A stretch of DNA of 64,000 nucleotides. Source: Elusimicrobiota bacterium. Lineage in GTDB: Bacteria; Elusimicrobiota; Elusimicrobia; Elusimicrobiales; UBA9959. This document shows, in pieces, positions 39,654 to 63,166 of this stretch. Below the pieces are notes generated by a model. That model did no database searches. It saw nothing but the letters and a program-made list of their open reading frames with translations, and was not told the DNA's origin. How positions within the stretch are numbered: position 1 is the stretch's first letter; each line of letters starts with the position of its first letter. The translations under genes and the position numbers were made by a program. Location: the NCBI GenBank assembly GCA_019135865.1, contig JAGVVD010000011.1:124001-188000 (forward strand). The letters are read 5' to 3'.

Positions 39654-39770
39654 GACAGAATCCTCCCCGCCGGTCGCTCTTCCAATACCCCCAAACCCGA
39701 AAACGGCCGGCGGAGACAGTCAATGATCCCGCTGAAATCCGGGCGTTGAGGAGATCCAGGGAGGATCTCT

Positions 39771-39974: not shown

Positions 39975-39993
39975 CGGGTCGGCGCGAAAAACT

Positions 39994-42756: not shown

Positions 42757-44159
42757 ACTGGAAGATCTCCCGTCTTGCCGCAATCCTCCTGGCTGCCGCG
42801 CCGGCGGCTTTATCGGCTTCCGGCGCGGGCACGACCGCGGCACCGTTCCTTAAAGAAGTCCCCACCGCGCGCGGCTTTGCCCTCGGCGGCGTTTATCTGC
42901 CTCTGGTAAACGAAGCCGGCGCGTTCTGGTCCAACCCGGCGGCGCTCGGCGCCATGAGCGGCCATCATATCGAACTGTCGGCCTGGAGGGGCTTGGACGC
43001 CGAGAGCGAGTATGGCTACCTGGGCGCGGCGCTTGACGCCGGCCGCGTGGGTGCGTTCGGGCTGAGTTACCAGTCCTACGACAGCGGCGCGGAGGAGATA
43101 TGGGATCTCAACGGCAACATGTCGAAAATTTCCCTCCAGAAAGACTACGCCGTTACGGCGGGCTGGGGGCGGAACTTCGGCGAGAACCTGTTTTTCGGCG
43201 CTTCCGCCAAAACGGTGAACAGCAAACTGGTGGAGACTTACAGCGCCGGTGCGGTCAGCTTCGACGCCGGCCTTATCTACCGCTCCCTTGACGATAAATT
43301 TGTGATCGGCGCGAGTGCGCGGAATATTTCCGGCGAGCTGAAGTATAAATCCGAGGCGGACCCGCTGCCCAAAACTCTGTGCGGCGAGGCGGGTTATCGT
43401 TTTAACGCCGGAAGGAACCAGATAGCTCTGGGCGGCCTTATACAGAAACCAGACGATGCGGACAACCTGGAGGGCGGAGCTGGAATGGAGATATCCCCGG
43501 CGGGTATGCCGGTGGCGCTGCGGGCAGGCTTGGCGCGTACTGCGGACGAAACAGCTTTTACCGCTGGCCTGGGCCTTGATATAGGTCGCTTCGGAGTAGA
43601 TTACGGTTTTAAGCCGGCTGGAGCTCTCGGCGAGACATCGCAACGGCTTACGCTGCGCATGGACTTCGGCTCCTCCGGCGACGCCGCACGCGCGGAAGCT
43701 TTCCGGGAGCGCGGGCTTAAGCGCAAGGCGCTGGCCATGGGCTACACCTATGCCGGCCCCCGGATAACGGTGTCGGTGCTGCAGCCCGAGATCGGAGAGG
43801 GGGTCACCGCTGAGGAGGGCGCGGCGGTGGCCGAAGCGCTGCGTTCCGGCATGGGCCGAAGCCCAAAGCTGCAATTGGTCGCGCGTGAAAAAACCGAACA
43901 GATACTCAGGGAGCAGCATTTCCAGTATTCCGTCTGCGGCTCGGCTGATTGCGCCGTGGAGGCCGGGAAGCTGCTGGGCGTGCGCAAGATAATAGGAGTG
44001 TCCATGATGCGCATAGGCTCCAGGTACGCCCTGACTATAAAATCCATAGATGTCGAGACCGGAGCCCAGGATTATTCCGTCACGGAGACGGCCGGCAGCG
44101 TGGAGGGCCTGTATAACCAGGCCGTCAAATTCGCCGAAAAGGCGGCGTTGGAAGAATAA
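42753..44159 (+). CDS. PorV-like outer-membrane barrel fused to a CsgG/LpoB-like domain
   Basis: 468 residues. Signal peptide ~1-23. Residues ~28-310 resemble the PorV/UPF0164 barrel: TARGFALGGVYLPLVNEAGAFWSNPAALG, ELSAWRGLDAESEYGYLGAAL, VTAGWGRNFGENLFFGASAKTV and GRFGVDYGFKPAGALGETSQRLTLRMDF. After a linker the last ~135 residues look like a CsgG/LpoB-type periplasmic domain (ITVSVLQPEIGEGVTAEEGAAVAEALR, KLQLVAREKTEQILREQ, GKLLGVRKIIGVSMMRIGSRYALTIKSIDVETG). PorV proteins shuttle or anchor secreted cargo in type IX-like export. The upstream gene product with its FlgD-like C-terminus is the obvious cargo candidate (inference). Confidence 0.75.
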   Translation: MNWKISRLAAILLAAAPAALSASGAGTTAAPFLKEVPTARGFALGGVYLPLVNEAGAFWSNPAALGAMSGHHIELSAWRGLDAESEYGYLGAALDAGRVGAFGLSYQSYDSGAEEIWDLNGNMSKISLQKDYAVTAGWGRNFGENLFFGASAKTVNSKLVETYSAGAVSFDAGLIYRSLDDKFVIGASARNISGELKYKSEADPLPKTLCGEAGYRFNAGRNQIALGGLIQKPDDADNLEGGAGMEISPAGMPVALRAGLARTADETAFTAGLGLDIGRFGVDYGFKPAGALGETSQRLTLRMDFGSSGDAARAEAFRERGLKRKALAMGYTYAGPRITVSVLQPEIGEGVTAEEGAAVAEALRSGMGRSPKLQLVAREKTEQILREQHFQYSVCGSADCAVEAGKLLGVRKIIGVSMMRIGSRYALTIKSIDVETGAQDYSVTETAGSVEGLYNQAVKFAEKAALEE

Positions 44160-44785: not shown

Positions 44786-44891
44786 TGGCGAGGGGTCAGG
44801 CGGGGGATATTGGGATGGGGTAGATGAAATGAGCCGTTGATATTATCCGCATTATTATGCACAATACTTCAAGTAACTTAAAGGATTGTGT

Positions 44892-45476
44892 ATGCCAAAA
44901 AACCGGGTCGCGTCGGAAAAACTGTTTGAAATAGCTGTCGGGCAACAGGGTTACTTCACTTATAGGCAGGCTATTGAGTCGGGCTATCTGCCAAGTTCCA
45001 CGATATTCCACGTCAAGGCCGGGAACTGGATCAAGGAGAAAATACGCGGCATTTATCGCCTCGCTCAATTCCCGCCGCAGGAACGGCCCGACCTTGTTCT
45101 TTGGGCGCTGTGGTCCGCCAACCGCAAGGGAACGGTGCAGGGGATTTATTCGCACGAGACGGCGCTCTCGATTTACGAGCTTACCGACATCATGCCCGCC
45201 AAGTTTCACATGACCGTCCCGAAGCGCTTTCGCAAGAACGGTATAATGCCGCCGAATATCGTGCTTCATCGTTCGGATATAAAGCCGCGGGATATCCGCA
45301 AAATGCACGGCTATTGCGTTACAACTCCCGCCAGGACCATAATGGACATGTTCGAAGCGGGCGCCATGCATCCCGATGACGTCGCCGCGGTTCTCAAGCA
45401 GGCGGTGGAAAGCGGACTTATAACGCAGGAAGAGTCCCGCTATATCCGCGTCGGAAGGCGGGGGAATGGGAAATAA
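44892..45476 (+). CDS. abiEi: AbiEi-type antitoxin (type IV toxin-antitoxin)
   Basis: 194 residues from ATG 44892 (a GTG at 44886 is less likely); AAAGGA upstream. The N-terminal winged helix (KLFEIAVGQQGYFTYRQAIESGYLPSSTIFHVKAGNWIKEKIRGIYRLAQFP) matches the AbiEi_4 DNA-binding domain. The C-terminal part has GIYSHETALSIYELTDIMPAKFHMTVPKRFRK and TTPARTIMDMFEAG, both usual in the family. The protein normally represses its operon and counters the toxin encoded immediately downstream, whose start overlaps it by 11 bases. It lies inside the low-GC island. Confidence 0.9.
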   Translation: MPKNRVASEKLFEIAVGQQGYFTYRQAIESGYLPSSTIFHVKAGNWIKEKIRGIYRLAQFPPQERPDLVLWALWSANRKGTVQGIYSHETALSIYELTDIMPAKFHMTVPKRFRKNGIMPPNIVLHRSDIKPRDIRKMHGYCVTTPARTIMDMFEAGAMHPDDVAAVLKQAVESGLITQEESRYIRVGRRGNGK

Positions 45477-46320
45477 CCGGTATAAGACCGCCGCCGCTTT
45501 TCGCCAGGCGCTGGAAAACCGGCTCCAGGTCATGGCGGAACAGCTGAATCTGGAACTGCAGCGTCTTCGTCGCAGGGCGGCGTTTAACCGCTTCCTGGCC
45601 AGGATGTTCGCCAGCGCCGGCGGCGGTTGGGTTTTAAAGGGCGGGTACTCGATGGAACTGCGTCTGGCAAATGCGCGCTCGACCAAGGATATCGACTTGA
45701 GCTTTGCGGGCAAGTTGGCCGATGTGGGGAGTAAACCGGAGATGTTTATTCTGGAACTTTTGCAGAAAAGTGCGGCCATGGACCTGGATGATTATTTCGA
45801 TTTTCAGATAGGTAAAACTCAAATGCAGCTGGAAGGGCCTCTATATGGCGGGGCGCGCTATCCGGTAAAGGCCATGCTTGACGGCAGGCTGTTTGTCTCT
45901 TTCCATGTGGATGTGGCTTTAGGTGATTACATTCCGGCTGAGGTCGAAGTGTCGGAGGAGCCGGATTGGTTCGCTTTTGCCGGCGTGGCGGCGGCGAAAT
46001 TCAACATGCTCCCCCGTGCGGTGCAGTTCGCGGAGAAGCTGCATTCTTATTCCCTGCCGAGGGCCGTGCCGAATTCACGCATCCGCGACCTGGTTGATCT
46101 GGTTCTGCTGATCAAGGAAGGCAAACTGGATAAACATACGCTGAAGAAAACCCTGTCGGTTGTTTTCAGCAGGCGCAAAACGCACGGCTTGCCGGCAAAA
46201 CTGGACCCGCCGCCGGAGGAATGGGTTAAGCCGTTCAGGCGCATGGCGGACGAATGCGGACTTGAGGGGGATATTTCGGCCGCGTTCGAGATTCTCAACC
46301 GGTTTTATTCCGGCGTCTGA
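45466..46320 (+). CDS. abiEii: AbiEii-type nucleotidyltransferase toxin
   Basis: 284 residues. The family core is intact: GWVLKGGYSMELRLANARSTKDIDLSFAG near residues 47-75, i.e. the G-G-x-x-L...R-x-T-x-D-x-D nucleotidyltransferase signature with metal-binding Asp residues. Later blocks are FHVDVALGD and KFNMLPRAVQFAEKLHSYSLPR...RIRDLVDLVLL, with the catalytic-type Lys of 'A-E-K-L-H'. AbiEii toxins transfer nucleotides, in studied cases to tRNA acceptor ends, and stop growth during phage infection. The pair is probably functional; phage defence is known for the family, not shown here. Confidence 0.9.
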   Translation: MGNNRYKTAAAFRQALENRLQVMAEQLNLELQRLRRRAAFNRFLARMFASAGGGWVLKGGYSMELRLANARSTKDIDLSFAGKLADVGSKPEMFILELLQKSAAMDLDDYFDFQIGKTQMQLEGPLYGGARYPVKAMLDGRLFVSFHVDVALGDYIPAEVEVSEEPDWFAFAGVAAAKFNMLPRAVQFAEKLHSYSLPRAVPNSRIRDLVDLVLLIKEGKLDKHTLKKTLSVVFSRRKTHGLPAKLDPPPEEWVKPFRRMADECGLEGDISAAFEILNRFYSGV

Positions 46321-46436
46321 CAGACCGTTATTGTTGCGTATTTTACGGTAAATCAGGCGGTATATATGCGTATTATCATAGGGAGCCTGATGTCGTTCGG
46401 GCTTTCAACTATTGTCGGCCGGCCGGCGGCTTCCGG

Positions 46437-47383
46437 CTATTTCTTGAGGTAGGTCCTGACCCGGTCCAGCACCGCCGCTTTCAGGTCGGGCGGCGAGATC
46501 ACCCTTATATAAGGAAGGAAGCGCAGGATATTGGGCAGGGCCTCGTTGGGGTGGCTGATGCGGCATTCCACCGTGAACGACGACGGGCCCTTTTTGCCCA
46601 GCTTCTGCTGCGGGAAATAATCGCAGGCCTCGAAATAATCGCGCACCGTGTTATCGGCCTCCAGTACGACATTCACCGGCGACTGCGTGCCGAACCAGAT
46701 GTTCCGCGCATTGCGAGCGGCTCCACCGAGACGATATTGGAATAGCGCACCGTGCGGATGTCCTTGAACCGGCCGTTCTCGCCGGGCAGGTAGCCCAGGT
46801 ACCACAGCCCCTCCGACATGATCAGCGCGAAAGGCGCGCCTTTTATCGTCGCCGTGCCGCCCGCCTTGCGGTAGGTCAGGTTCATCATCAGCTTTTCCTG
46901 GATGGCGCGGTAGAGGTCCTTGTAGAAAGGCAGCGTCATGTCCGGGTTCTTAACGCGCGGCGTTATCATGAAGAAGGGGTAGGAGGTCTCGTCCAATAAG
47001 AACAGCTTGTCGATGGACTGCAGCACCGACTTGTTGACCTCGCCGCCGAAGATCTTTGAGAGCTTGTAGATGAAGGCCAGCGTGGCGGCGTCGTGATCGG
47101 TCACGTTCATCTTGAGGAAAGACTGCGTTTCGCCGTTGAACAGCCACCGGCCCTGCTCGCTCTCGTCGGGGTAGATCACCTGGTCCTGCCGCAGCGATTC
47201 CAGGTCGCGCTGCACGGTGCGGCTGGAGACATTGAAGACCTCGGCCAGGTCGGAGGTGCGCACCCAGCCGCGCGACTGCAACTGGCCGAAAATGTAGAAA
47301 AGCCGCTTCTTGAACGAATCGAAGCGCTCCTGCCGGCGCGCCTTGTCCGCCGCCCTGAACGCCACGCTTTTGATCTTTTTCAT
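46437..47383 (-). pseudogene. WYL-domain HTH regulator, broken by a deletion/frameshift (direct-repeat copy 3)
   Basis: Start ATG 47383 (GGGGGG upstream). The first ~225 codons encode the HTH (FYIFGQLQSRGWVRTSDLAEVFNVSSRTVQRDLESLRQD) and core WYL domain (YRKAGGTATIKGAPFALIMSEGLWYLGYL, RYSNIVSVEPL). At ~46715 the frame is lost, and the C-terminal WYL extension (NARNIWFGTQ to the end) continues in another frame. About 25-30 residues that usually link the two parts are missing. The split point is the same GCATTGCG boundary at which copy 1 diverges. A truncated 236-residue protein could still be made and might bind DNA. Confidence 0.8.
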
Positions 47384-47426
47384 CGTCCCCCCTATGTGGA
47401 GCATATTCTACAATAATGAGGATATC

Positions 47427-47470
47427 GGGGATACAATACCTATTTCGGTCGAAATAGGTATTGTGTCCCC
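47427..47470. repeat. Inverted repeat of the GGGGACACAATAC type, copy 1
   Basis: 21-base arms (47427-47447 and 47450-47470) with a 2-base loop and one mismatch. The arm reads GGGGAYACAATACCTATTTC. Repeats of this kind are widespread in bacterial genomes, often linked to REP-associated tyrosine transposases; none is encoded in this window. Confidence 0.8.
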
Positions 47471-47514
47471 CGATTAAGCAGGCAACTTTGTAGGATATAC
47501 AAGCGTATTAATAG

Positions 47515-48590: not shown

Positions 48591-49781
48591 ATGAAAAGGA
48601 TAGTATTGCCCGTTCTCGCCGCCCTGACGCTGGCGGCCTATGTCCCCGCGGACGCCCACGCGCGCCGCGGCGGCAAGGTCGTGCTGCACGGCGACATAGT
48701 GATAGAGAAGGATTCGCGCCGCACGGAAGACGTGCTGACCGACGGCTCGCTGAGGATCGACGGCACGCTGGCCGCCGACGCGGTCTCGCTGGGCGGACCG
48801 GTCACGGTCAACGGCCTGGTCACCGGCGACGTCTCCACGATGGGCGGCCCCGTCACCATAAACGGCCGCGCCGACGACGACGTCTCCTCCTTCGGCGGCC
48901 CGATAACCGTGGCCGGCGAAGTGAGCGGCGACGTCTCGTCGCTCGGCGGACCGGTGCTGGTCTCGGGCCACGTCGAGGGCGATATCTCCTCGCTGGGAGG
49001 CAACGTCAAGCTGACCTCCGGCGCGGTGGTGGACGGCGACATCTCCACGATGGGCGGCCTGGTGGAGAGGGAGGACGGCGCGGTGCACCGCGGCTCGGTC
49101 ACCTCCTTCGACACCCGCGACATACGCCGCGCGCTGCTGGACGTCGGCCGCGTCGCGCGCCAGGGCGAGAAGCGCCTCTCCCCGCTGCTGGCCGGCGGCC
49201 TGGCCACGGCCGGCCTCATCTTCCTCTTCTCGCTGCTCTTCACCGGCGTCATCCTGCTGCTGCTGCCCGCCGTCTTCTTCCCGCTCCACACCGGCCGCGC
49301 CGCCGAAGCCGTCCGCGCCGACTTCTGGCGCGCCACCGGCATAGGCGCGCTGATCACGGTCGCCTTCTTCCCGGCCATGCTGATGCTGCTGGTCTCGATA
49401 CTGGGCATACCGCTCATCCCGCTGGCCCTGCTGCTGCTGGTCTGCGCCGCGGCGCTGGGCCTGAGCGGCTTCAGCGTGGTGCTGCAGGAGCGCTTCTTCG
49501 AGGGCATCAAGCGCAAGGGCCCCGCTTCCCTGCTGGGCCAGGTGGTCGTGGGCTACGCCCTGATGGCCGGCCTGCTCATCTTCGGCAATATCATCCCGCT
49601 GATCGGCGGCGTGCTGTCCTTCATCGGCTTCATGATGATGGCCTTCGGCGCGGTCGTCGGCCTGGGCGCCGCCTGGGATACCCGCATGGGGAACCGCCCG
49701 GCGCCGGTCCCGCCGGCCGCCGCAGCGCAGACCGCCCCCGCGGCCCGGCCCCCCGCGCAGGAGCCTCCGCCGCAGTCCTGA
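48591..49781 (+). CDS. Membrane protein with bactofilin-like repeat domain
   Basis: 396 residues; AAGGAGAAAG before the ATG. Signal peptide ~1-24. Residues ~30-165 form a beta-helix with ~18-residue turns (LRIDGTLAADAVSLGGPVTV, NGLVTGDVSTMGGPVTI, NGRADDDVSSFGGPITVAGE), like bactofilin/polymer-forming domains. Then 4-5 membrane segments (~200-225, 252-275, 278-300, 320-345, 350-370) and a Pro/Ala-rich tail. The beta-helix is probably periplasmic. Likely an envelope stress protein under the adjacent ECF sigma factor (inference). Confidence 0.8.
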   Translation: MKRIVLPVLAALTLAAYVPADAHARRGGKVVLHGDIVIEKDSRRTEDVLTDGSLRIDGTLAADAVSLGGPVTVNGLVTGDVSTMGGPVTINGRADDDVSSFGGPITVAGEVSGDVSSLGGPVLVSGHVEGDISSLGGNVKLTSGAVVDGDISTMGGLVEREDGAVHRGSVTSFDTRDIRRALLDVGRVARQGEKRLSPLLAGGLATAGLIFLFSLLFTGVILLLLPAVFFPLHTGRAAEAVRADFWRATGIGALITVAFFPAMLMLLVSILGIPLIPLALLLLVCAAALGLSGFSVVLQERFFEGIKRKGPASLLGQVVVGYALMAGLLIFGNIIPLIGGVLSFIGFMMMAFGAVVGLGAAWDTRMGNRPAPVPPAAAAQTAPAARPPAQEPPPQS

Positions 49782-49805
49782 CCCGGGTCCTAAGCGAGCC
49801 GGAAC

Positions 49806-49837
49806 GAGGCCGTTCTCCCCGCGCGGAGGGCGGCCTC
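49806..49837 (+). terminator. GC-rich hairpin, possible terminator
   Basis: GAGGCCG (49806-49812) pairs with CGGCCTC (49831-49837) and CTTCATT follows; only a few Ts. It separates the sigma-factor operon from the AAA+/NERD operon. Confidence 0.45.
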
Positions 49838-49851
49838 CTTCATTGAATCTT

Positions 49852-49860
49852 TGCTATTAT
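49852..49860 (+). promoter_or_regulatory. Extended -10 promoter of the AAA+/NERD operon
   Basis: TGCTATTAT, an extended -10 with one change from consensus. No -35 is obvious. GGCGGAG lies at 49864-49870 and the ATG at 49883. Confidence 0.5.
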
Positions 49861-49882
49861 ATTGGCGGAGAAACGCGATATC

Positions 49883-50800
49883 ATGACAGAACGCGACCCA
49901 GAACTCGAGCCCGCGGCGGCGCCGCCGGCCTCCGAAAGCGCGCCGCCCGGCCGCTCCCCCGGCCCGGTCCCTCTTCCCGCCGGTCCAGGCAGCGGGCACG
50001 GCTCCCCCGGGGCGAAAACCTCCGGCCATTTCTGGCTCTATCCCGCCATCCTGCTCGCGGTACTGCTTTCCGTTTTCGCAGTCTTCCGGAACGAAATGCG
50101 CCCCGTGATGCCCCTCTCCGGCGAGCGGCCCGCTCCCGTCCTGCCGCTTCCCGCGGCCCGCGTCCCGGCTCCGCCGCCGGCCCCCGCGGCCGAAAGGCCC
50201 CCGGAGCCGCTGCCGCCGGTGCCTATAGCCGAGGTCGGCATGAACCTGCCGGAATACGGCGCCCACGGCGTCGCCGCCGGCGCTTCCGCGCCGTCCGCCT
50301 TCCGCCCCGCTTCGATGGGGACCCTGCCGATCCTGAGCATCGATGGACCGGCCGGCTCCCCCGGCGGGGACACGGCGCGCTACGACGACGGGTACCGCGC
50401 CGGGGAAACGGCCGGGCTGGACGGGGGCCTCAGGGTGGACCCCTCTCTCCGCCGCCAGCCGGCGGAGAAGACCATGACCGCGGCGGAACTGGCCGCCTGC
50501 CCCGCCTGCAAGGTCGGCGCGGCGGCGGGCAAGAGTTCCGGCCTCAGCAAGCTGGCCACCGGGAAATACTTCGTCCAGAACGAGCTGGTCGTCGAATCCC
50601 TGGGCCTCTGCGAAGGCATGCACGTCTACCGGTACAGGAACCAGAGCCCGAACAAGACGATAACGTCCACCGTGCAGAATATCAGCGGGGAGACCTGGAC
50701 CTTCACGCTCGAACCCGGCAAGACCTACGAACTCAGCAGTTCGATCGAACTTACCCGCGACACGGCCGTGTCCATAAGGGTGGGCGAGGTGCTCAACTGA
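49883..50800 (+). CDS. Single-pass membrane protein of unknown function
   Basis: 305 residues from ATG 49883 (TTG 49862 lies inside the promoter region). N-terminal ~45 residues are Pro/Glu/Ala-rich (cytoplasmic), one TM at ~46-62 (WLYPAILLAVLLSVFAVF), then a long Pro-rich linker (~65-200). A compact C-terminal domain (~200-305) has an AACPACK motif and a beta-rich end (YFVQNELVVESLGLCEGMHVYRYRNQ, ETWTFTLEPGKTYELSSSIELTRDTAVSIRVGE). No family recognised. It is the first gene of an operon with two Clp-like ATPases, so the C-terminal domain may present or sense a substrate outside the inner membrane (speculative). Confidence 0.65.
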   Translation: MTERDPELEPAAAPPASESAPPGRSPGPVPLPAGPGSGHGSPGAKTSGHFWLYPAILLAVLLSVFAVFRNEMRPVMPLSGERPAPVLPLPAARVPAPPPAPAAERPPEPLPPVPIAEVGMNLPEYGAHGVAAGASAPSAFRPASMGTLPILSIDGPAGSPGGDTARYDDGYRAGETAGLDGGLRVDPSLRRQPAEKTMTAAELAACPACKVGAAAGKSSGLSKLATGKYFVQNELVVESLGLCEGMHVYRYRNQSPNKTITSTVQNISGETWTFTLEPGKTYELSSSIELTRDTAVSIRVGEVLN

Positions 50801-50801
50801 G

Positions 50802-51119
50802 ATGACGCCGGACGCCTCACCCGCCCCGGAGCCCGGCAGGCCCGAACCCCGGCCCGCGCCCGTTCCCGCCGAAAGGCCGGCCGCGGCCGGCGGCCCTCCC
50901 GGCGACAGGGGCCCGAGGGGACCGGGCGAACCCTATACCCCGATGCCGGTGTTCCCGGCCCCCCGGCGCAGGGCGGGCGCGCTCGCGGCGCTGCTGCTGC
51001 TCGCGCTGGCCGCGGTCTCCGGCCTGCTGTTCATGCTCAAAGGCGGAGGCCCCGGCGGACCGGCCGCCCCGGCGGCGGAGCCGCCGGCCGCGTCCGAAGC
51101 GGCGGACGCCGTACGATGA
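50802..51119 (+). CDS. Small Pro-rich single-pass membrane protein
   Basis: 105 residues, one base after the preceding stop and overlapping the next gene by 4 bases (ATGA). A Pro/Arg/Ala-rich N-terminal half, one TM (~59-80, AGALAALLLLALAAVSGLLFML), then a Gly/Pro/Ala tail. Low complexity, no family. Its layout copies that of its larger neighbour without the C-terminal domain. Position strongly suggests it belongs to the same membrane complex. Confidence 0.6.
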   Translation: MTPDASPAPEPGRPEPRPAPVPAERPAAAGGPPGDRGPRGPGEPYTPMPVFPAPRRRAGALAALLLLALAAVSGLLFMLKGGGPGGPAAPAAEPPAASEAADAVR

Positions 51120-52225
51120 TGAAACTGCATCCTTTCTTCATGGTGATGATCGTGCTCGGCATAGTCACGGGCATGTACAGCGTCTACACCATCTTCCCGC
51201 CCAGCATGCCGCTGCTGTTCGTCGGCAGCCTGATCGGCCTTTTCGTCAGGATAAACCAGGTCCTGCTGGAGAAACGCAAGCAGACGGACGCCGGCGCGGC
51301 CGTGGACTTCGCGCGCCTGCGGGCCATCGATCTCAAGTGCTACGCGGGCTGGATAAAGGAGAACGTGCGCGGCCACGACGAAGTGGTCGACCGGGTGGTG
51401 AGCCGGATACAGCAGGGGCTGGCCGTCGCCGCGCCAGGCCAGGTGCCGGGCGCCTTCATGCTCTCCGGCCCCACCGGCACCGGCAAGACCTTCCTGGCCG
51501 AGATCGTCGCCCGGGCCCTTTACAAGGAGAGCGAGCTGCTCCTGCTGCGCATGAACCAGTACAAGTCCCCGCAGGACGTCTTCACCCTCATAGGCCCGCC
51601 GCCCGGCTACCAGGGCTACGAGATCGGCGGCGCGCTCACGCGCCCCGTGCTGGAGAACCCTTACCGCGTGATCCTGCTCGACGAGTTCGAGAAGGCCCAT
51701 ATAGACGTGCAGCACTGCCTCTATAATATCCTCGACAGGGGACAGTGCCGCGAGAAGAGCTCCGGCCGCACCGTGCATTTCAGCGCCTGCGTCTTCTTCG
51801 CCACCTGCAACTGCGGCGTGGACGCGCTGCGCGCCATCTGGAAGAAGACGGAGGACCCCGCCCTGCGCAACGGCCGCGCCCGCGAGGCCATGGCGCGCGA
51901 AGGCTTCGAGCGGCCGCTGCTGGCCCGGTTCAGCGACATCCTGGTGATGGACCAGCTGGACCCCGTCGAGATAGCCGAGGTCGCCTGCCTGCAGATAGCC
52001 AAGCACTGGCGGCAGTACGGCATAGAGGTCGCTTATACCTCGCCGGAAGTGCTGATCGAGGCCATCAGGCGCAACGTCGAGTTCCAGGATTACGGCGTGC
52101 GGCAGCTGGCCAACCTGATACGCGAGATCACGACCCCGTCCATAGAAGAGGCCCGCCGGCTCGGCGCCACGCGCGTGCGGCTGAGCCTCGACGAGAAGAC
52201 GGGGCAGGTGACGGTGACGCGATGA
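51116..52225 (+). CDS. Membrane-anchored single-ring Clp-like AAA+ ATPase
   Basis: 369 residues. Two N-terminal TMs (~7-25 and ~29-46) precede a ClpA/ClpB D2-type AAA_2 module. Walker A GPTGTGKT starts at residue 118 and Walker B ILLDEFEK has D189/E190. Further motifs are the pore/substrate loop region GYQGYEIGGALTRPV, sensor 1 FFATCN, arginine finger area RPLLARFSDI and sensor 2 YGVRQLANLIRE. There is no N-domain, D1 ring or ClpP-binding loop. True Clp ATPases are soluble; a membrane-anchored one-ring form is unusual. It probably unfolds or remodels a client at the inner-membrane surface. Confidence 0.85.
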   Translation: MMKLHPFFMVMIVLGIVTGMYSVYTIFPPSMPLLFVGSLIGLFVRINQVLLEKRKQTDAGAAVDFARLRAIDLKCYAGWIKENVRGHDEVVDRVVSRIQQGLAVAAPGQVPGAFMLSGPTGTGKTFLAEIVARALYKESELLLLRMNQYKSPQDVFTLIGPPPGYQGYEIGGALTRPVLENPYRVILLDEFEKAHIDVQHCLYNILDRGQCREKSSGRTVHFSACVFFATCNCGVDALRAIWKKTEDPALRNGRAREAMAREGFERPLLARFSDILVMDQLDPVEIAEVACLQIAKHWRQYGIEVAYTSPEVLIEAIRRNVEFQDYGVRQLANLIREITTPSIEEARRLGATRVRLSLDEKTGQVTVTR

Positions 52226-53433
52226 GCGAGAACAGGGATATCTCCGTCATCGCGGACGTCTGGGTGCAGGTCTTCACCCTGCTGCTGATAGTCTCCGCCG
52301 TCTTCTCGCTGCATTATCTTCTCGCCGCTCCTCCCGCCGCCGCCCCGCCGGCCGCGCCCGCCGCCGCGGAGGGAACGGCGCCTGACCCCGCCCCGCAGGC
52401 CGCTCCTCAGCCGGCGCCGGCGGCGGCCGCCCCCGCCGCGACTCCGGCCGCGCCGGTCTCGGCCGCCGCTCCCGCCGCCGCCTCCCCGGCCGACCGCGTC
52501 CAGTGGGTGGTATCCAAGGAGAGCGAGAAGCGCACCACGCTGGGCAGCGTTATCGCCATGGCCAGGGACGGCGACACCATCCTGGTCCAGCCCGGCAGAT
52601 ACGACGTCAGCGCCCTGATCGGCAAGTCCCTGACGATAACCGGCGGCGGCGCCTCGCCGGCCGAGGTCGAACTGACCCACGCTTTTTCCCCGACCCTGTC
52701 GGTCAACGGCGGCGATCTCACGCTGCGCAATCTCACCATCGGCAATACCGCCACGCTCGAACACTGGACGCTGTCGATCTCCAGGGGCAAGCTGAACATG
52801 CGCGGCGTCAGGCTCAAGTCCTCCGTCAAAGGCCTCAAGGCGGTGGATTCCTCCGTCGAAGCCTCCGACTGCGAATTCGACGCCGAGACGGCCGTCTTCG
52901 TCTCCGGCAGGTCCAATGCCCGCTTCTCGGACGTGTCCCTCACCGGCAGTTATATCGGCCTCCGGGTGGAGGACGGGACGGCCGAGGTCCTGCTGGAGGA
53001 CTCCATCGTTTCCAAAGGCGGTACGGGGATCGTCGCGGCCGGCGGGGCGCGCGTCGAGATAAAGGGCACCACCGTTTCCGGCCATACGGCCTACGCCCTG
53101 GCCGCGGGGTCCGGCGCCGAGATACGCGTCAAGGACTCCTCGCTGACGGAGAACGCGGACTGCGCCGCTTTCATCCACGACACCGACGGCAGGGTGGTCC
53201 TGGAGAAGGTCCTGCTGCGCCGCAACAAATGCGGGGTGCAGTTCGCCGGGAAGGGGTCCCTGGACGTGCGCCTGAGCAGGTTCCGGGACAATTCCATGGG
53301 CGCGGTGGCCCTGAGCCCCCTGCAGGGGGACCTCGCCGTGATAACCGGTCACGGCAACGAAGGTTTCACGGTACCCGGCGAGAAGAAGCCCGCCGCCAGG
53401 AAGCGCGCGGCCGCCGCGCCGCGCAGGAAATGA
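52222..53433 (+). CDS. Membrane-anchored right-handed beta-helix protein
   Basis: 403 residues; ATGA overlap with the membrane AAA+ gene. One TM (~14-35, VQVFTLLLIVSAVFSLHYLLA), a ~65-residue Ala/Pro linker, then from ~95 a pectate-lyase-like parallel beta-helix: DGDTILVQPGRYDVSALIGKSLTITGGG, LTLRNLTIGN, VEASDCEFDA, GLRVEDGTAEVLLEDSIV and RVVLEKVLLRRNKCGVQF. A basic tail (KKPAARKRAAAAPRRK) ends it. No catalytic Asp triad of polysaccharide lyases is evident, so it may be a binding scaffold rather than an enzyme. It sits between the two Clp-like ATPase genes. Confidence 0.8.
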   Translation: MSENRDISVIADVWVQVFTLLLIVSAVFSLHYLLAAPPAAAPPAAPAAAEGTAPDPAPQAAPQPAPAAAAPAATPAAPVSAAAPAAASPADRVQWVVSKESEKRTTLGSVIAMARDGDTILVQPGRYDVSALIGKSLTITGGGASPAEVELTHAFSPTLSVNGGDLTLRNLTIGNTATLEHWTLSISRGKLNMRGVRLKSSVKGLKAVDSSVEASDCEFDAETAVFVSGRSNARFSDVSLTGSYIGLRVEDGTAEVLLEDSIVSKGGTGIVAAGGARVEIKGTTVSGHTAYALAAGSGAEIRVKDSSLTENADCAAFIHDTDGRVVLEKVLLRRNKCGVQFAGKGSLDVRLSRFRDNSMGAVALSPLQGDLAVITGHGNEGFTVPGEKKPAARKRAAAAPRRK

Positions 53434-53455
53434 CGCCATTCCGGAGAGGAACAAT

Positions 53456-54466
53456 ATGACGGACCTGAACAAGATGACCGACTGGAGCAAACTCAAGGAG
53501 ATGGTCGCGGGCTCGGAACTGGGCAGCAAGAGCCGCACCGTCGACGAGAAGCTGCTGCTGGAACACCTGCAGTCGCGCGTGAAGGGCCAGGACCACATCG
53601 TCACCGACGTCGCGCGGCTGATACGCCTGAGCTGGGAGAAGCAGGAGCGCACGCGCCCCATCTGCAGCCTGCTGCTGCTGGGCCCGACGGGCACCGGCAA
53701 GACCGAACTGGCCAAGGCCATGGCCGAGTACCTCTTCGGCAGCGAGAAGGACATGCTGCGCTTCGACTGCTCGGAGCTGAGCAGCCCGGACATGGCCAAG
53801 AGCCGCCTGACCGGCTCCTCCGCCGGCTTCAAGGATTCCGAGTCTGGCGGCCAGCTGACCCGCCCCATGATGGCCAACCCGCGCCGCCTGGTGCTCTTCG
53901 ACGAGGTGGAGAAGGCCCACCCGCTGGTCTTCGACCTGCTGCTGCAGCTGCTGGGCGACGGCCGCCTGACCGAGCAGAGCACCGGCAGGACCGCGGACTT
54001 CACCCAGTCCATCGTCGTGCTGACCAGCAACGCCATCGCCGACCAGGTGGCCAAGGCCGTCGAGGGCATGGACGACTACCGCGAGATGCTCAACGCCATA
54101 AAGACGCTGCTCTCCGAGTCGGGCACCTTCCGCCCGGAGATCATGGGCCGCATCGACAAGGTCTACCTGTTCAAGCCGCTCGAGGGGATGATCGTCGCCG
54201 AGATAGCGCTGCTCAAGATCGCCAGGCTCGCCAGGGAGTACGGCATGACCGTCGACTTCGTCGCGCCGGAACTGCTGCTGCAGGCGCTGGAGGCCAACCT
54301 CAAGGTCAGCCGCTTCGGCATACGCGAGCTGGAGCGGATCCTGTTCGATTTCTTCGCCGAGCAGCTGGTGGCCATGCGCGAGAAGAAAGTGACGCACGTC
54401 TCTTTCCGACGGGGGGACGACGGGAAGATAGTCTGCGAGCCCTCGGCCGGCAAGCCCGGCCGTTAG
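53456..54466 (+). CDS. Soluble single-ring Clp-like AAA+ ATPase
   Basis: 336 residues; GGAGAGGA lies 6 bases before the ATG. No membrane segment. AAA_2 module as in ClpB/ClpA D2: Walker A GPTGTGKT from residue 76, Walker B LVLFDEVEKAHP (D149/E150), LLQLLGDGRLTEQSTGRTADF, sensor 1 VVLTSN, arginine finger FRPEIMGRIDKV and sensor 2 FGIRELERILFDF. A ~60-residue helical N-terminus (SRTVDEKLLLEHLQSRVKGQDHIV) precedes it. Paralogous to the membrane-anchored ATPase two genes upstream; the pair could form a hetero-ring or act in sequence. Confidence 0.88.
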   Translation: MTDLNKMTDWSKLKEMVAGSELGSKSRTVDEKLLLEHLQSRVKGQDHIVTDVARLIRLSWEKQERTRPICSLLLLGPTGTGKTELAKAMAEYLFGSEKDMLRFDCSELSSPDMAKSRLTGSSAGFKDSESGGQLTRPMMANPRRLVLFDEVEKAHPLVFDLLLQLLGDGRLTEQSTGRTADFTQSIVVLTSNAIADQVAKAVEGMDDYREMLNAIKTLLSESGTFRPEIMGRIDKVYLFKPLEGMIVAEIALLKIARLAREYGMTVDFVAPELLLQALEANLKVSRFGIRELERILFDFFAEQLVAMREKKVTHVSFRRGDDGKIVCEPSAGKPGR

Positions 54467-54485
54467 ACGCGGGGGACCCCACGCT

Positions 54486-56135
54486 ATGGCGAAGATGATA
54501 CACGGCAACGCGCTGGATTTCAACAACCAGAGCGAGAAGCGTTTCTTCGAACTCCTGCAGCACAGCCCGGCCACCGCCGCCTGGACCGTCATCTATTCGC
54601 ACAAGACCGTCACCGGCGGCGAGCGCGAGACCGACTTCGTCGCCATGATCCCGGAGATCGGCCTGGTCGCCATCGAGCTCAAGGCCGCCGAGCTCTCCTA
54701 CAGCTCGCGGGTGCCCGGCTTCAAGTACGCCAGGGGCGGCTTCATCTCGCTGCGCGACGTGCTGGTCGCCGCCAAGAAGAAGGAGCGCCACCTGCGCGAG
54801 CTCCTGCTCAAGCGCTGCGGCAACGTCTTCTCCGGCGAGATCAGCGTCTTCCTCAACGTCCGCCAGGCCGACCTGCGCCACCTGCCCGACTCGCCGTCGC
54901 TCTACATCGCCTCCGACTGCAAGTACCAGGACATCCCCGCGCTCATCGCCGCCAAGGCCCTGGAGCAGAAGGCCGCGGTCACGCAGGCGCACCGCATGAG
55001 CTTCGTGAAGTGGAAGGAGGGGGACATCTCCGCCTTCGCCCGCTACCTCAAGGGCGAGTTCATCGAGGAAGAGGGCAATATCTGCCGCAATTACCTGGAG
55101 ACCCACTGGAAGGCCAACGCCGAGGCGCTGGGCATCACCTACAACATGCTCTCGACGATGCCGCGCCTGCTGCTGCGCGGCCCCGCCGGCACCGGCAAGA
55201 CCGGCCTGCTGCTGCAGCGCGCCCGCGAGCTCGACCGCAGCAACGACACGCTGGTGCTCTGCTACAACAAGCTGCTGGCCGAAAGCCTCCGGAACGAACT
55301 GTCGAAGTGCGACCGCACCGACGTCTGGTGCCTGGAGGACTACCTGCGCGAGGTCTGCGGCGCGCCGTGGAACGCCGACGAGGACATCGGCCCGCTGATC
55401 CGCGACAAACTGCCCGCCGCCGCGCTGGAGAAGCTCAAAAAGAAAAGACCGGCCTACGACGTGCTGCTGGTGGACGAGTTCCAGGATTTCATGCGCCAGG
55501 GCTGGCTGGACGTGCTCGACGCCTCCCTCGACGGAGGCCTGGCCGCCGGCAAGGCCTGGCTCTTCGCCGACTTCTCCGTGGCCTCGATGGCCGAGAGCGA
55601 CGTTAACCCCGGCGATTTCCTCAAGAAATACGGCTTCAAGGACGAACTGGTCAACCTGCGCGTCAACTACCGCAACGCCTCGGAGATAGCCGCGGTGGTG
55701 GAATACGTCGCGGGCTCTAGCAATAAGCGCGTCCTTTACGACAAGGCCCTCAATCTCTGCGACCTGCCCATCGAGGTGGTGACCTACGCCGACGACGAGG
55801 AGCAGGCGGCCCTGGTCAACAACTCCGTCTCGGACCTGATGGGAGAGGGCTATTGCTACCAGCCCTCGGATATCGCCGTGCTCTCGGCGCACCGCGCCTC
55901 CGAGTCGGCCCTGGGCGCCTCGCTGCGCGAGGATATCGCCTTCAACTCGATACACGCCGTCAAAGGCATGGAGGCGAAAGTGGTGCTCGTCACCGACCTG
56001 CACGAGCGCACGCCCCTGCGCCCCGACCCGCGCGTCCTGCTCTACCTCGGCGCCTCGCGCGCCATGTTCAAGCTGCTTTTCTTCGTCCAGAAGGACTTCT
56101 ACCAGAAGTTCCTGAAGATAACCGGCCTGAGCTGA
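54486..56135 (+). CDS. NERD nuclease domain / UvrD-like helicase
   Basis: 549 residues. The N-terminal NERD domain (~12-120) has the PD-(D/E)xK-type residues E17, D50 and E64-L-K66 (ETDFVAMIPEIGLVAIELKA). The SF1 helicase part follows with Walker A GPAGTGKT at 232-239, motif II VDEFQDF, motif III-like WLFADFSVAS, motif IV region LRVNYRNASEI, motif V HAVKGMEAKVVLV and motif VI LYLGASRAMFKLLF. Compared with UvrD it is compact. It should cut and/or unwind DNA (or RNA). It starts 20 bases after the soluble ATPase gene and ends the operon; a promoter for a non-coding transcript starts 36 bases later. Confidence 0.88.
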   Translation: MAKMIHGNALDFNNQSEKRFFELLQHSPATAAWTVIYSHKTVTGGERETDFVAMIPEIGLVAIELKAAELSYSSRVPGFKYARGGFISLRDVLVAAKKKERHLRELLLKRCGNVFSGEISVFLNVRQADLRHLPDSPSLYIASDCKYQDIPALIAAKALEQKAAVTQAHRMSFVKWKEGDISAFARYLKGEFIEEEGNICRNYLETHWKANAEALGITYNMLSTMPRLLLRGPAGTGKTGLLLQRARELDRSNDTLVLCYNKLLAESLRNELSKCDRTDVWCLEDYLREVCGAPWNADEDIGPLIRDKLPAAALEKLKKKRPAYDVLLVDEFQDFMRQGWLDVLDASLDGGLAAGKAWLFADFSVASMAESDVNPGDFLKKYGFKDELVNLRVNYRNASEIAAVVEYVAGSSNKRVLYDKALNLCDLPIEVVTYADDEEQAALVNNSVSDLMGEGYCYQPSDIAVLSAHRASESALGASLREDIAFNSIHAVKGMEAKVVLVTDLHERTPLRPDPRVLLYLGASRAMFKLLFFVQKDFYQKFLKITGLS

Positions 56136-56170: not shown

Positions 56171-56199
56171 TTGACAAGTCAACGTCCGCCTGTTATAGT
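56171..56199 (+). promoter_or_regulatory. Near-consensus sigma-70 promoter of the non-coding unit
   Basis: TTGACA (56171-56176), exactly 17 bases, then TATAGT (56194-56199) preceded by TGT (extended -10). It is the best promoter in the window and no gene follows it before two terminators. Confidence 0.85.
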
Positions 56200-56205
56200 C
56201 TATCT

Positions 56206-56540
56206 GCGGTCCTGATCTTTGAGACAGTTTCGGTGCGCCGGTTCGGTGGTTGCGGTCGCGGTCTCGGTTGCGGTCGGCTCGGGGGTGGCCCCGGCCCCGG
56301 CGCGGTTCCCCGGCTCCGCCTTCGGTGTTCGCGGCGGCTCCCCCCGGGGCGCCCGGTCCCCGTCCCGCCCCCTCGGGCGCGCGGTCCCCGGGCCTGCGGT
56401 CCGGCTGCGGTGTCGGTGCGGTGTGTTCCCGCGGTCGTGGTCCTCGGTAGCGGTCGTGGTGCGGTTGCGGTCGCCGGTCCGCCTGTGCGGTGTGTTCCGA
56501 GTAGAGAGCCCCCGTCGTCCTGACGGGGGCCCTCTTTTTT
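56206..56540 (+). ncRNA. Candidate non-coding RNA with a 222-nt adenine-free run
   Basis: Expected transcript from ~56206 to the terminator ending at 56540 (~335 nt). Positions 56227-56448 contain no A, and only one A (56449) occurs in 56227-56499. The body is made of short G/C/U words: GTGCGGTGTGTTCC at 56416-56429 and 56485-56498, GCGGTCGTGGT at 56431-56441 and 56450-56460, CGGTTGCGGTCG twice. It lacks the signatures of tmRNA, RNase P RNA, 6S and SRP RNA. Frames are open only because stop codons need A. I infer a structured RNA; function unknown. Confidence 0.6.
56504..56540 (+). terminator. Strong Rho-independent terminator of the ncRNA unit
   Basis: CCCCCGTC, loop GTCCT, GACGGGGG extended by GAGAG/CCCTC pairing, then TTTTTT. 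Confidence 0.92.
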
Positions 56541-59783: not shown

Positions 59784-62069
59784 TTACAGGTCTATGATAG
59801 TGGTACGGAGGCCGTCTATCAGGGCGGCCTCCGCGGCTATTGCGGGGTCTTTGGTGAGGATGACGACCTGCCAGCCGCTGGTCTTGTGGAAATCGGCGAG
59901 GAGGCGCAGGGCGGCGCGCGCGCGTTCGGGGTCGAGCGTGTAGAACGGCTCGTCGAGGACCAGCGGCACCGGGCCGTCCTCGCCGCGGGCCTTGCGGGCC
60001 AGCGCCACGCGCGCGGCCAGCATGAACAGGTCGCGCGTGCCGGCCGAGAGCAGGCCCACCGGCCTGGCCGCGCCGCCGGCGTCGGTCAGAGAGGCCGAGG
60101 CGGCGTCGAAATCGGCGAATTCCGCCGCGGCGGAAGGCAAAGCGCCGGCCAGCGCGGCCGTTACTTCCTTGCCCAACTGCTTGAATGCTGCCGACGAGGT
60201 CTCCGCTATCCTGGTGAAGACGCCCGCGGCCAGCAGGCAGGCGGCCCGGCGCTCCTCGATCTCCCCGGTCTCGGTCCCGCCGGCGGCCAGTTCGTCGCGC
60301 AGCCGGCCTATCTCCTCGGGCAGGCCTTCCAGCTTGGCCCCGGCCGCCGCCCTCGCCACCTCTAAATTCTTGCCCAGTTCCAGCAGCTCGCGATCGCGCG
60401 CCCGCGCGTCTTCGGCCGCGGCGGCCAGCCGCTTCTCCAGCCGCTCCAGCTCCTTGCGGTCGGCCTTCTCCGGGTCGAAACCCTTGCGCTCCAGCGCTTC
60501 CTTCTCGTCGAACAGGCGGTCTTTGAGATCTTCATCGGAAGAAGCGCTCATCCGCTGGCGCATGACGGCGGCGCGCTGGGCCAGGTTCTCGGCCTTGCCG
60601 GCGAGCGCGATATACTCGGCCAACTTGTCCAGGTATTCGTTCTCCGAGGCGCAGCCGCGCGAGCGCAGCCATTCCTCCGCCTTGCCCGCCAGCGACTTGG
60701 CCTCGCCGTCGCGGTCCTTCAGCTCTTCCGTCGCTGCCGTGATGCCGCCGTCGGCCGGCGCCACCTCGGCCTTGCGCGCCGCCAGCGCCTCCGCCGCCGA
60801 CCTGTGGGCGGCCTCGGCGTCGGCGAAGAAGCCGCGCACTTCCTCCAGCTTCGCGGCCGTCATCGGCTCGCCGGTCCCGGCCTTCCATTCGGCGGCCAGC
60901 CCGGCGATGAATCGCGTCATTTCCTCGGGGCGATGGCCGGCCAGCATCGGCTTCAGCGATATCTTCACGCCCGCCCAGACCGCGCCGGCGAAGATGAAGG
61001 CCGAGGCGATATAGGCGGCGGTATTGCCGCCCGACCAGGCGACGAAAGCGGCCAGCGCCGCGCCGGCGAACCAGACGCCCGCCCGCGTGGGCATATGCGG
61101 GACCAGCATGATCTGGTCGGGGCCCGAGGCATAGGCGGCCAGCTTGGCCTTCAGCGCCTCGGCGGTCTCGCGGCGCTTGCGCAGCGCCGACTCGCGCGCC
61201 TCCAGGTCGGCCACGGCCTTCTTTAAAGCGGCCGCCGCCGTCTCTTTCTCGCGCAGCGCGGCCGCCGCCGACAGCGCCCGGCCGGTCGCCTCGTTCTCGC
61301 GCTCCTTGAGCGCGCGGTAGGCGCCTATCTCGCTCTTGGCGAAATCCTTGCGTATCTCCAGCGAGTCGCGCGCCTCTTTGAGCTCGCGCAGAGCCTTTAT
61401 ACCTTCCTGCGCCTCGCTCAGCCGGCAGGCGCCCGTAAGTTCCTCGACCTTGCCCTTGAACTCGGCCAGTTTCTTATTTATCTCGTCCAGCTCGGCCCGC
61501 TTGGCCGCTATCGCCCGCTCCAGCTCGGCGCTCTGCTGTTCGGCCGCGAAGATCGCCCCGCGTTTGGCCTCCAGCTCGTCGAGCCGGGCCTGCGCCTCGA
61601 CGGCCGCCGTCTTTATTTTCTTCATCCGCGCATTGAAAGAATCGCGGGCATTGGAGGTGGTCCTGGCTTCCAGCGCGGCGGCCAGACGGGCGGGATTCAA
61701 GCCGGCGTTCAATAATGAATTCTCCGCCGCGGCCGCCCAGGCCGACGAGCCCTTATCGCCCGAGAGCGCGTTCACCGCCGCCTCGCCGCCGCGTATGGCG
61801 AAAATTTCAAGGAACTCCGATTCATCTATCGCCGGCCGCGCGTCCTCCGGCTCCCAGACCGCCGAGGCCTGCCGCTCGTCGCCGTAGCGCTCCAGCAGCC
61901 GCTTCCAGGCGGACCTGGTGTCGTTGCGCTTACAGAGCGATTCGAAAATAGCGTCGAAGACCGTCGTCTTACCGGCCTCATTGGCGCCCTGTATGACCGT
62001 GAACGGGCCCAGCTCCAGGTCGCACCCGCGGAACTTGCCGAAATTTATCAGCCGGAGCCGCCGTATCAT
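59784..62069 (-). CDS. YhaN/SbcC-like ATPase with internal membrane pair
   Basis: 761 residues. N-terminal ABC half: LRLINFGKFRGCDLELGPFTVIQGANEAGKTTVFDAIFE (Walker A GANEAGKT). A long coiled coil (~150-310) follows, two hydrophobic segments near ~325-370 (AGVWFAGAALAAFVAW, AAYIASAFIFAGAVWAGV), a second coiled coil (~400-620), and the C-terminal half with signature LLSAGTRDLFMLAARVALA and Walker B PLVLDEPFYTLD. Two membrane helices at the tip of the coiled coil are a feature of the YhaN branch rather than SbcC/Rad50. It overlaps the nuclease gene (ATGA) and should form an Mre11-Rad50-like DNA-end complex tethered to the membrane. Confidence 0.85.
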   Translation of the reverse strand: MIRRLRLINFGKFRGCDLELGPFTVIQGANEAGKTTVFDAIFESLCKRNDTRSAWKRLLERYGDERQASAVWEPEDARPAIDESEFLEIFAIRGGEAAVNALSGDKGSSAWAAAAENSLLNAGLNPARLAAALEARTTSNARDSFNARMKKIKTAAVEAQARLDELEAKRGAIFAAEQQSAELERAIAAKRAELDEINKKLAEFKGKVEELTGACRLSEAQEGIKALRELKEARDSLEIRKDFAKSEIGAYRALKERENEATGRALSAAAALREKETAAAALKKAVADLEARESALRKRRETAEALKAKLAAYASGPDQIMLVPHMPTRAGVWFAGAALAAFVAWSGGNTAAYIASAFIFAGAVWAGVKISLKPMLAGHRPEEMTRFIAGLAAEWKAGTGEPMTAAKLEEVRGFFADAEAAHRSAAEALAARKAEVAPADGGITAATEELKDRDGEAKSLAGKAEEWLRSRGCASENEYLDKLAEYIALAGKAENLAQRAAVMRQRMSASSDEDLKDRLFDEKEALERKGFDPEKADRKELERLEKRLAAAAEDARARDRELLELGKNLEVARAAAGAKLEGLPEEIGRLRDELAAGGTETGEIEERRAACLLAAGVFTRIAETSSAAFKQLGKEVTAALAGALPSAAAEFADFDAASASLTDAGGAARPVGLLSAGTRDLFMLAARVALARKARGEDGPVPLVLDEPFYTLDPERARAALRLLADFHKTSGWQVVILTKDPAIAAEAALIDGLRTTIIDL

Positions 62070-63166
62070 CGCGCGTCCTCCAGCCGGCCGGCTATCTCGT
62101 CCAGGCCGTAGTGACGGGCCAGCAGCCAGCGGCGGCCGCCGCGCTCGTCGGAGGCCTCGGGCTTTATCGTCTCCATCTCGGCCAGGAAGGCTTTGGCCAG
62201 CGCGTTCCCGGAGATCTCCGCCGCCACCCGCGTGTCCAGTTCCACGGCCACCCGCCGCACCATCGGCGCCAAACGCTCGCGCAGACCGTCGGCCGCCGCG
62301 CGCACCGCCTTCTCGTCGTCAACGATACCGCTCAGCCGCACCGTCACAAGGTCGGGCTTCTCGAGCTCCAGAATAAGTTTGGACACCGGTTGCTCGGGCA
62401 CCGCGCCGTCCGGCCCCAGCGGCAACGTGTACTCGCGGTACTGCCCGGCGCTGACCAGCTCCAGCGCGCGTATATTGACCGGCGAGCCCGCCGTATCCAC
62501 CAGCCGCACCGTCTTGCGCCCCGCCTCGCGCGGATGCGCCCGCCAGACGCGGGGGGAACCCGGGTAGCAGGCCAGCGCCCCGCCCAGCAGCATCTGCCGC
62601 CCGGCGTGCACATGGCCCATCGCCGCGTAATCCACCGCGAAACGCTGGAAGAAATTGTCGTCCATCACGCCCGCGCGCGCCTGGTCCTCCGGGTCCGGCC
62701 CGGAGAAGATGGTGGAATTGAGCGCGTGCACCAGCGCCACCCGCACCGCGCCCGGCTTTTTGGGGTCCACCCTCCAGTCTCGATATCCGTCATAGGCCGC
62801 CGCGTGCGGCACGCAGAGGAACTCCACGCCCTTGCTCTCAAACAATGTGAACGGCAGCTCCGCCTTGAAGGTCAGCGGCTTGAGGTCGTACTTCGACAGG
62901 TCCGGCTGCCCGCCCAGCGACTCGTGATTGCCGGGGATATAAATAACCTCGCAGCCAGCCTTGACCAGCGGCTCCAGCCGCGCGCAGACCTCGCGCCGCA
63001 GCGCCTCGAAATCGGCGAAGGAATCGAACAGGTCGCCCGATATCAGCAGAAAATCTGCCCGCTCCGTCCGGCAGAGCCCGATTATTTCTCCCAGCACCGA
63101 CAGGCCGTAGTCCTTATCGTCCCCGGTCGCCAGGTGCAGGTCGGCAGTATGTATTATCTTGGCCAT
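62066..63166 (-). CDS. SbcD/YhaO-like metallophosphoesterase (DNA repair nuclease)
   Basis: 366 residues. Mre11/SbcD motifs in order: HTADLHL (motif I, residues 6-12), ISGDLFDS (II), IPGNHES (III), ALVHALNS-type motif IV region, and YAAMGHVHAGRQ (V). The metal-binding Asp/His set is complete. The C-terminal ~120 residues would bind the ATPase partner encoded immediately downstream. It should resect or clip DNA ends with its partner. Upstream DNA is AT-rich with palindromes. Confidence 0.9.
   Translation of the reverse strand: MAKIIHTADLHLATGDDKDYGLSVLGEIIGLCRTERADFLLISGDLFDSFADFEALRREVCARLEPLVKAGCEVIYIPGNHESLGGQPDLSKYDLKPLTFKAELPFTLFESKGVEFLCVPHAAAYDGYRDWRVDPKKPGAVRVALVHALNSTIFSGPDPEDQARAGVMDDNFFQRFAVDYAAMGHVHAGRQMLLGGALACYPGSPRVWRAHPREAGRKTVRLVDTAGSPVNIRALELVSAGQYREYTLPLGPDGAVPEQPVSKLILELEKPDLVTVRLSGIVDDEKAVRAAADGLRERLAPMVRRVAVELDTRVAAEISGNALAKAFLAEMETIKPEASDERGGRRWLLARHYGLDEIAGRLEDAR

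Follow-up and report, generated by a model that had tools for sequence, protein, structure and literature searches.

Among the described systems closest to the locus reported here, the isolated second nucleotide-binding domain (NBD2) of ClpB/Hsp104 is reported to be unable to hexamerise or to work alone (PMC7343390), Msp1 extracts membrane proteins (PMC7018516), and transmembrane (TM)-anchored Sel1 domains occur in nucleoside triphosphate (NTP)-dependent conflict systems (PMC7159879). The locus lies in a 64,000-nucleotide stretch, hereafter the window, of the 2.95-Mb genome of an Elusimicrobiota bacterium (GCA_019135865.1, contig JAGVVD010000011.1; G000:C48:124001-188000 in our collection), in which six open reading frames (ORFs), designated genes A to F, are all encoded on the plus strand at 49883-56135. 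We find that genes A to E are a real, co-inherited five-gene module centred on two Clp-like ATPases, C and E, and that the helicase gene F is independent of it.

The six genes and their tight packing, with overlaps or gaps of 1-22 bases, had been recognised in an earlier sequence-only reading, and both hold up, coordinates included: A and B are separated by 1 base, B-C and C-D each overlap by 4 bases, and gaps of 22 and 19 bases separate D from E and E from F. A, B and D each have one hydrophobic helix near the N-terminus and C has two; E and F have none. Most of the earlier domain assignments also stand, namely one-ring Clp-like ATPases for C and E, a beta-helix for D and a NERD/UvrD-like helicase for F, but the anchor of C is a two-helix hairpin rather than a single helix. 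The CPAC domain proposed for A turned out to be part of a conserved CxxC...C pattern. The features of the segment are as follows:

49782 to 49882, no strand: left junction of the A-E segment, 3' of a bactofilin-like gene
49883 to 50800, plus strand: gene A, predicted cytoplasmic Pro-rich tail with xP[LM]P, one TM helix (residues ~50-68), Pro-rich stretch and C-terminal small beta domain
50802 to 51119, plus strand: gene B, short predicted bitopic protein whose cytoplasmic tail carries Y-T-P-M-P ahead of a TM helix (~61-79)
50934 to 50948, plus strand: YTPMP motif of B, a candidate docking motif
51116 to 52225, plus strand: gene C, predicted TM hairpin (hydrophobic helices ~1-19 and 26-44) followed by a single Clp-D2 AAA+ ring
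52222 to 53433, plus strand: gene D, W-V-Q membrane anchor, Ala/Pro-rich linker and right-handed beta-helix predicted as ectodomain
53456 to 54466, plus strand: gene E, soluble single Clp-D2 AAA+ ring with an invariant N-terminal MTDWxxL segment
54467 to 54485, no strand: right junction between E and F, 19 bp, of which only ~CACGCTATGG just 5' of F is common to the same-genus genomes G001 and G002
54486 to 56135, plus strand: gene F, NERD/UvrD-like helicase, an independent neighbour outside the module

To follow the genes beyond the window, we surveyed 340 Elusimicrobiota genomes. C is present in 24, and a 25th genome (G181) matches as an E-type protein only. D comes next after C in all 22 fetched loci and is itself followed by E in 21; C-E pairs occur both in the window's family and in further families of the class. 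A and B lie ahead of C in the window's family and are found as diverged copies in some other loci (L056, L059), and in family f15 both are replaced by a single B-type protein with a YVPLP or YTPLP tail, a TM helix and another beta domain. Several genomes of genus g4 have a sixth gene 3' of E, which encodes a TM protein resembling Sel1-repeat proteins by sequence. Since the identical gene order recurs in other genomes, the A-E arrangement exceeds what chance would produce. A scan of a genome collection with two short patterns, which distant relatives elsewhere may escape, returned 21 loci, all from Elusimicrobia, and no same-genome paralogues of A or D were found. Several matches were discarded as relatives: the one in G012 is a truncated ClpC-type gene, Microvirga H1 is a solitary ATPase gene on a plasmid segment close to transposases, Legionella H3 is ClpA, and the plasmid and INPHARED phage copies are ClpB/ClpA/TssH-level matches only (<60% identity). 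As a separate observation, the C gene of G180 (L060, G180:C407) contains one in-frame TGA.

A related operon is carried by IMG/VR contig 3300035696_000096 (43,326 bp), a tailed-phage sequence with terminase, portal, head protease, major head, tape-measure and DNA polymerase genes as assigned by PHROGs. It occupies 28228-35178 on the minus strand in the order B'-C-Sel1-Sel1-X-E. The B' protein has the tail sequence AVGYTPLPQ, a TM helix and an f15-type C-terminal end; two Sel1-repeat TM proteins take the place of the beta-helix protein and keep a similar anchor; and X, a 303-residue protein between the Sel1 genes and E (L099 9221-10132, G340), matches nothing in PHROGs or Pfam. In the tree, the phage C joins the C proteins of L063 and L064 (support 98/98), and the phage E branches off first within the E clade. 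The cassette genes have a guanine-cytosine (GC) content of 0.45-0.54 and a GC content at third codon positions (GC3) of 0.43-0.59, values tabulated without B', versus 0.616 (sd 0.019) and 0.76 (sd 0.04) in 27 others. The low GC content and its sharp borders, near 28 and 36 kb, suggest that the phage acquired the cassette; an origin as a double assembly chimera is unlikely. Scans with C, E and B' for further phage copies gave the same contig only, plus short Clp-like matches. There was no terminase match at 1e-40 in the 340 Elusimicrobiota genomes, a result uninformative on its own as to the host; the best hit in INPHARED is the terminase of Verrucomicrobia phage P8625 (25%), and relatives of the phage DNA polymerase are at most 35% identical, too distant for a comparison with a cassette-free phage. 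Given its patchy distribution and this phage-borne insert of foreign composition, the module is accessory, and its benefit probably depends on circumstances such as envelope attack or stress, or phage exclusion.

The two ATPases are the constant core of the module. C (369 residues) and E (336 residues) align solely to the second AAA ring (D2) of ClpB, ClpA and ClpV over ~200-270 residues (Pfam AAA_2, 2.6e-31 and 1.4e-38), cover positions ~555-833 of the ~853 in the NCBIfam ClpB/ClpV profiles, and have ClpB/ClpC D2 as their matches in the PDB. Both are without a D1, M or N domain and score far below what is required of a ClpB disaggregase (140 bits for C and 202 bits for E against a cut-off of 1232 bits). 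Walker A, Walker B, sensor 1, the Arg finger and sensor 2 are intact in 23/23 C and 24/24 E sequences, as would be expected of active Clp-D2 ATPases. An aromatic pore-loop residue, the predicted mark of a threading motor, is present in all 24 E sequences, whereas C is mixed: the residue is Y in the window's clade (GYQGYE in the window's C) and Q, H, V or S elsewhere, and some f15 members have a shorter loop or none. In a scan of the E proteins, we found no [LIVM]G[FLY] of the ClpP-binding IGF/LGF-type loop C-terminal to Walker A in the window's E; the only IGF-like matches, VGF or VGY in 3 of the 24 E proteins, all fall within the pore-loop sequence. The Pfam scan likewise placed no ankyrin and no peptidase family in C or E, and so gave no sign of an FtsH-type zinc metalloprotease.

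C forms one clade (support 100/100) and E another (100/98), both separate from 14 housekeeping Clp D2 domains. The earlier suggestion of two paralogous D2-only Clp ATPases with different localisation is supported, and the two recur together. Across 22 C/E pairs their distance matrices correlate at r = 0.94, with 0 of 5000 permutations as high, and the two proteins thus appear to diverge congruently, with a contribution from shared ancestry. Since isolated NBD2 is reported to be inactive (PMC7343390), D2-only proteins such as C and E plausibly require a partner or scaffold, by analogy with ClpB/Hsp104.

Genes A, B and D encode the predicted membrane partners, all with long Pro/Ala-rich linkers. 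B carries Y[TVI]P[LM]P 11-26 residues ahead of its TM helix in 14 of 14 sequences, the phage protein included, where shuffled tails would yield 0.002; the 14 sequences are mutually related. Most A tails contain P[LMI]P, which resembles the B motif. The C-terminal domain of A has a CxxC (C206 and C209) and C243 in a conserved cysteine pattern, and the protein as a whole is 35% identical to its orthologue in G017; a DUF1344 match (Pfam 0.0025) fell short of the curated cut-off and was not used. D is a right-handed beta-helix protein (Pfam 3.8e-12), and its W-[FVLI]-Q type anchor recurs in most D proteins of the beta-helix kind and in the Sel1 proteins of the phage. As the B motif, the P[LMI]P of A and the W-[FVLI]-Q anchor are shared across members with differing ectodomains, anchors and tails are conserved while ectodomains are swapped. 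Among 8-9 loci of the window's family, C and E have mean identities of 0.87-0.88, versus 0.56 for A, 0.68 for B and 0.71 for D. Slow motors beside fast-changing partners fit a picture in which the motors act on or through bitopic proteins whose outer parts track changing targets.

Taken together, we propose that A-E encode one inner-membrane machine with two motors that remodels envelope proteins, a reading to which we assign a probability of about 45%. This figure is for a biochemical mechanism; the weight given below to defence or exclusion concerns purpose, which is partly a different question. C would be held at the cytoplasmic face by its TM hairpin, and E would be its soluble partner. 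Because E alone always keeps the pore-loop aromatic, E is likely the threading motor, with C serving as its partner ring or as its dock at the membrane. A, B and D would be single-pass proteins. Their N-terminal tails, predicted to be cytoplasmic, display short conserved motifs: xP[LM]P in A, Y-x-P-[LM]-P in B and, at the anchor, W-[FVLI]-Q in D. On the periplasmic side they would expose swappable fast-evolving domains such as the beta-helix, Sel1 repeats or small beta domains. The motors would engage these tails, or envelope clients recruited by them, and pull or remodel them in a dislocase-like activity uncoupled from ClpP. Of the three roles proposed by the sequence-only reading, client unfolding at the envelope therefore fits best. 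More tentatively, the module may be a new type of envelope machine in which a docked and a soluble D2-only Clp ATPase jointly act on bitopic proteins whose periplasmic sensor domains are exchangeable, and the phage versions may control host entry or envelope state.

Several observations weigh against this proposal. The topology of A, B, C and D is a hydropathy prediction, and complex formation, ATPase activity, the division of labour between motor and dock, the substrates and the role are predictions too. C retains all ATPase motifs and may itself be a full motor, and the correlation between C and E distances is in part vertical descent. The gene set is not uniform either: A and B do not occur in every locus, some families having one B-type protein instead, and no E was detected at L061 (G207:C22), the second C-D locus of its genome. 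Finally, the C-terminal domains of A and B' gave all-beta, low-confidence folds with no significant PDB or viral match.

A possible but doubtful alternative for the module's purpose is anti-phage defence or superinfection exclusion, in which the periplasmic domains would sense an arriving phage by its tail, its injection proteins or an altered envelope, whereupon the membrane ATPases would either unfold or pull out an entry factor or set off damage to the envelope. It would account for a related operon sitting in a tailed-phage contig as a low-GC block, like an acquired accessory cassette, and it agrees with the patchy distribution, with an empty site within the genus, with the fast evolution of the ectodomains and with the description of TM-anchored Sel1 domains in NTP-dependent conflict systems (PMC7159879). 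An AbiEi/AbiEii type IV toxin-antitoxin pair and a WYL-domain regulator also lie 2.5-5 kb upstream (window 44886-47404). The bacterial surroundings speak otherwise. Among 85 flanking proteins of 14 bacterial loci, PADLOC matches at 1e-10 are few, none extending to more than two proteins, and by Pfam (top 25 families listed) the neighbours belong mostly to housekeeping or repeat families; the recurrence in defence islands proposed as a check was thus not seen. Several f15 genomes share their flanks, as if the locus were vertically kept. Within the module, A, B and D have no PADLOC match, C and E have generic Clp-type ATPase matches only, and no effector domain was recognised; the phage copy is a single one. 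Location thus argues for defence weakly, with some support from the phage copy and the patchy distribution. The membrane-coupled defence suggested earlier is possible in view of the foreign-composition phage copy, but the genes around the bacterial copies are mostly of other kinds.

We consider it improbable that the module is an assembly or transport factor for a surface structure, whose ATPases would supply the energy for exporting or inserting A, B and D or surface proteins with genes at other loci. Every non-ATPase part is a predicted envelope protein with a long Pro/Ala-rich linker, as such a role would lead one to expect, but the recurrent neighbours of the module include no outer-membrane, pilus or secretion component, flank families other than A-E, the Sel1 gene and the B-type proteins being shared by a few related loci only, and a phage-borne copy is a poor fit to a complete secretion system. 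Less probable still is general quality control of envelope proteins by FtsH- or Msp1-like extraction without a fixed protease. The TM-anchored single AAA ring recalls that of Msp1, an extractor of membrane proteins (PMC7018516), and no ClpP-type loop was seen in the window's E; yet C, at 24 of 340 genomes, is too patchy for a housekeeping function, and the partner proteins are dedicated and diversifying.

The sequence-only reading had joined the ATPases to gene F as one six-gene system, which the 19-bp spacing between E and F in the window's genome favours but which the distribution of F makes exceedingly improbable. F (weak Pfam UvrD/NERD-helicase-like matches; PADLOC NERD+UvrD (C3a187) 1e-12 and RTasNERD-Hel 5.9e-15) is present in G001 (95% identical) and G002 (93%), both of which are without C. 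In G002 the bactofilin-like gene (48591-49781 in the window) is followed by 75 bp and then F, with A-E absent; the G001 contig stops just upstream of F, and both flanks are visible in G002 only. Conversely, G017, from the window's family, has A-E in the same order followed by another gene on the opposite strand and no F. Across the sample F is found in 11 genomes and C in 24, with only the window's genome containing both, so that the ATPase pair accompanies F in 1 of the 11 genomes. F is therefore not part of the module. Of the six genes expected to recur jointly, A-E do and F does not, which corrects the earlier coupling of the ATPases to a nucleic-acid nuclease/helicase: the adjoining helicase is a separate gene. 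With that coupling gone, the suggested role in DNA import or export surveillance loses its basis. A-E were either inserted in G000 or lost from its sister genomes. A relative of F in G020 (46%; L037 525-5191) adjoins a DNA cytosine methylase and a type II restriction enzyme, and F is thus plausibly a defence-type helicase in its own right.

Other features were noted around the locus. A 42-bp near-perfect palindrome (GGGGACACAATACC...GGTATTGTGTCCCC), similar to a repetitive extragenic palindrome (REP) or a terminator, lies at window 47427-47471 upstream of a sigma-factor gene; in G002 it is found between the bactofilin-like gene and F (L036 2390-2431), and it also precedes F in G001. Beyond F, window 56171-56530 has a strong promoter-like TTGACA-17-TATAGT with TG and, ~310 bp on, a strong terminator-like hairpin. 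The element is conserved in G001 and G002, its plus strand is almost free of A and contains GCGGT/TCGGT repeats, and no Rfam family matched at the gathering threshold; it is a candidate non-coding RNA. Upstream, an outer-membrane barrel, an NHL/FlgD_ig/CHU_C protein and a PorP/SprF-like protein at 38949-44159 are suggestive of type IX-like secretion, and a 3062-residue ORF spans 27477-36665. At 59784-63166, a 761-residue SMC/Rad50-like ATPase adjoins a 366-residue gene, possibly as an SbcCD/YhaNO-type pair, with PADLOC matches for the ATPase only.

The module can finally be set against known systems. C and E align to the D2 of ClpB/Hsp104 with its ATPase motifs intact, but differ in the absence of an N-domain, D1 ring and M-domain, in the TM hairpin of C, in the MTDWxxL N-terminus of E and in forming separate clades. 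Skd3/human CLPB (PMC7343390) likewise has a single D2-type ring; unlike it, C and E have no ankyrin repeats and occur as two paralogues per operon beside envelope proteins. The best model for C is ClpV1 (1.4e-42), yet at 146 bits against a cut-off of 885; the ClpV/TssH of type VI secretion systems (T6SS) has two rings where C has one, and no T6SS gene was seen among the annotated neighbours (top 25 neighbour families listed). Msp1/ATAD1 and FtsH share a membrane-anchored AAA ring on the cytoplasmic side but belong to other AAA clades, and A-E differ in having no FtsH protease domain and in having dedicated bitopic partners. In the phage operon, TM-anchored Sel1 repeats adjoin an AAA+ module as in the TM-Sel1 conflict systems (PMC7159879), although no MoxR, vWA or STAND component was identified among A-E. 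Likeness to the PADLOC entries C3a187 NERD+UvrD and RTasNERD-Hel is limited to F. None of our profile-library, structure and literature searches matched the gene set (the literature was open-licence, and a description elsewhere is possible), in agreement with the earlier impression that it fits no known system.

The module consists of known domains in a new arrangement, and its function is predicted. Current searches find it only in a little-studied phylum and in a single phage, whose copy opens a role in conflict between phage and host to direct testing. The five genes also offer a small, testable set of parts for the action of AAA+ motors on envelope proteins. If the proposed mechanism is correct, an unfoldase would be divided between two co-inherited one-ring proteins, one of them docked at the membrane, with exchangeable periplasmic partners, and A-E would constitute an energised inner-membrane remodelling system unlike FtsH, Msp1, ClpB and ClpV.

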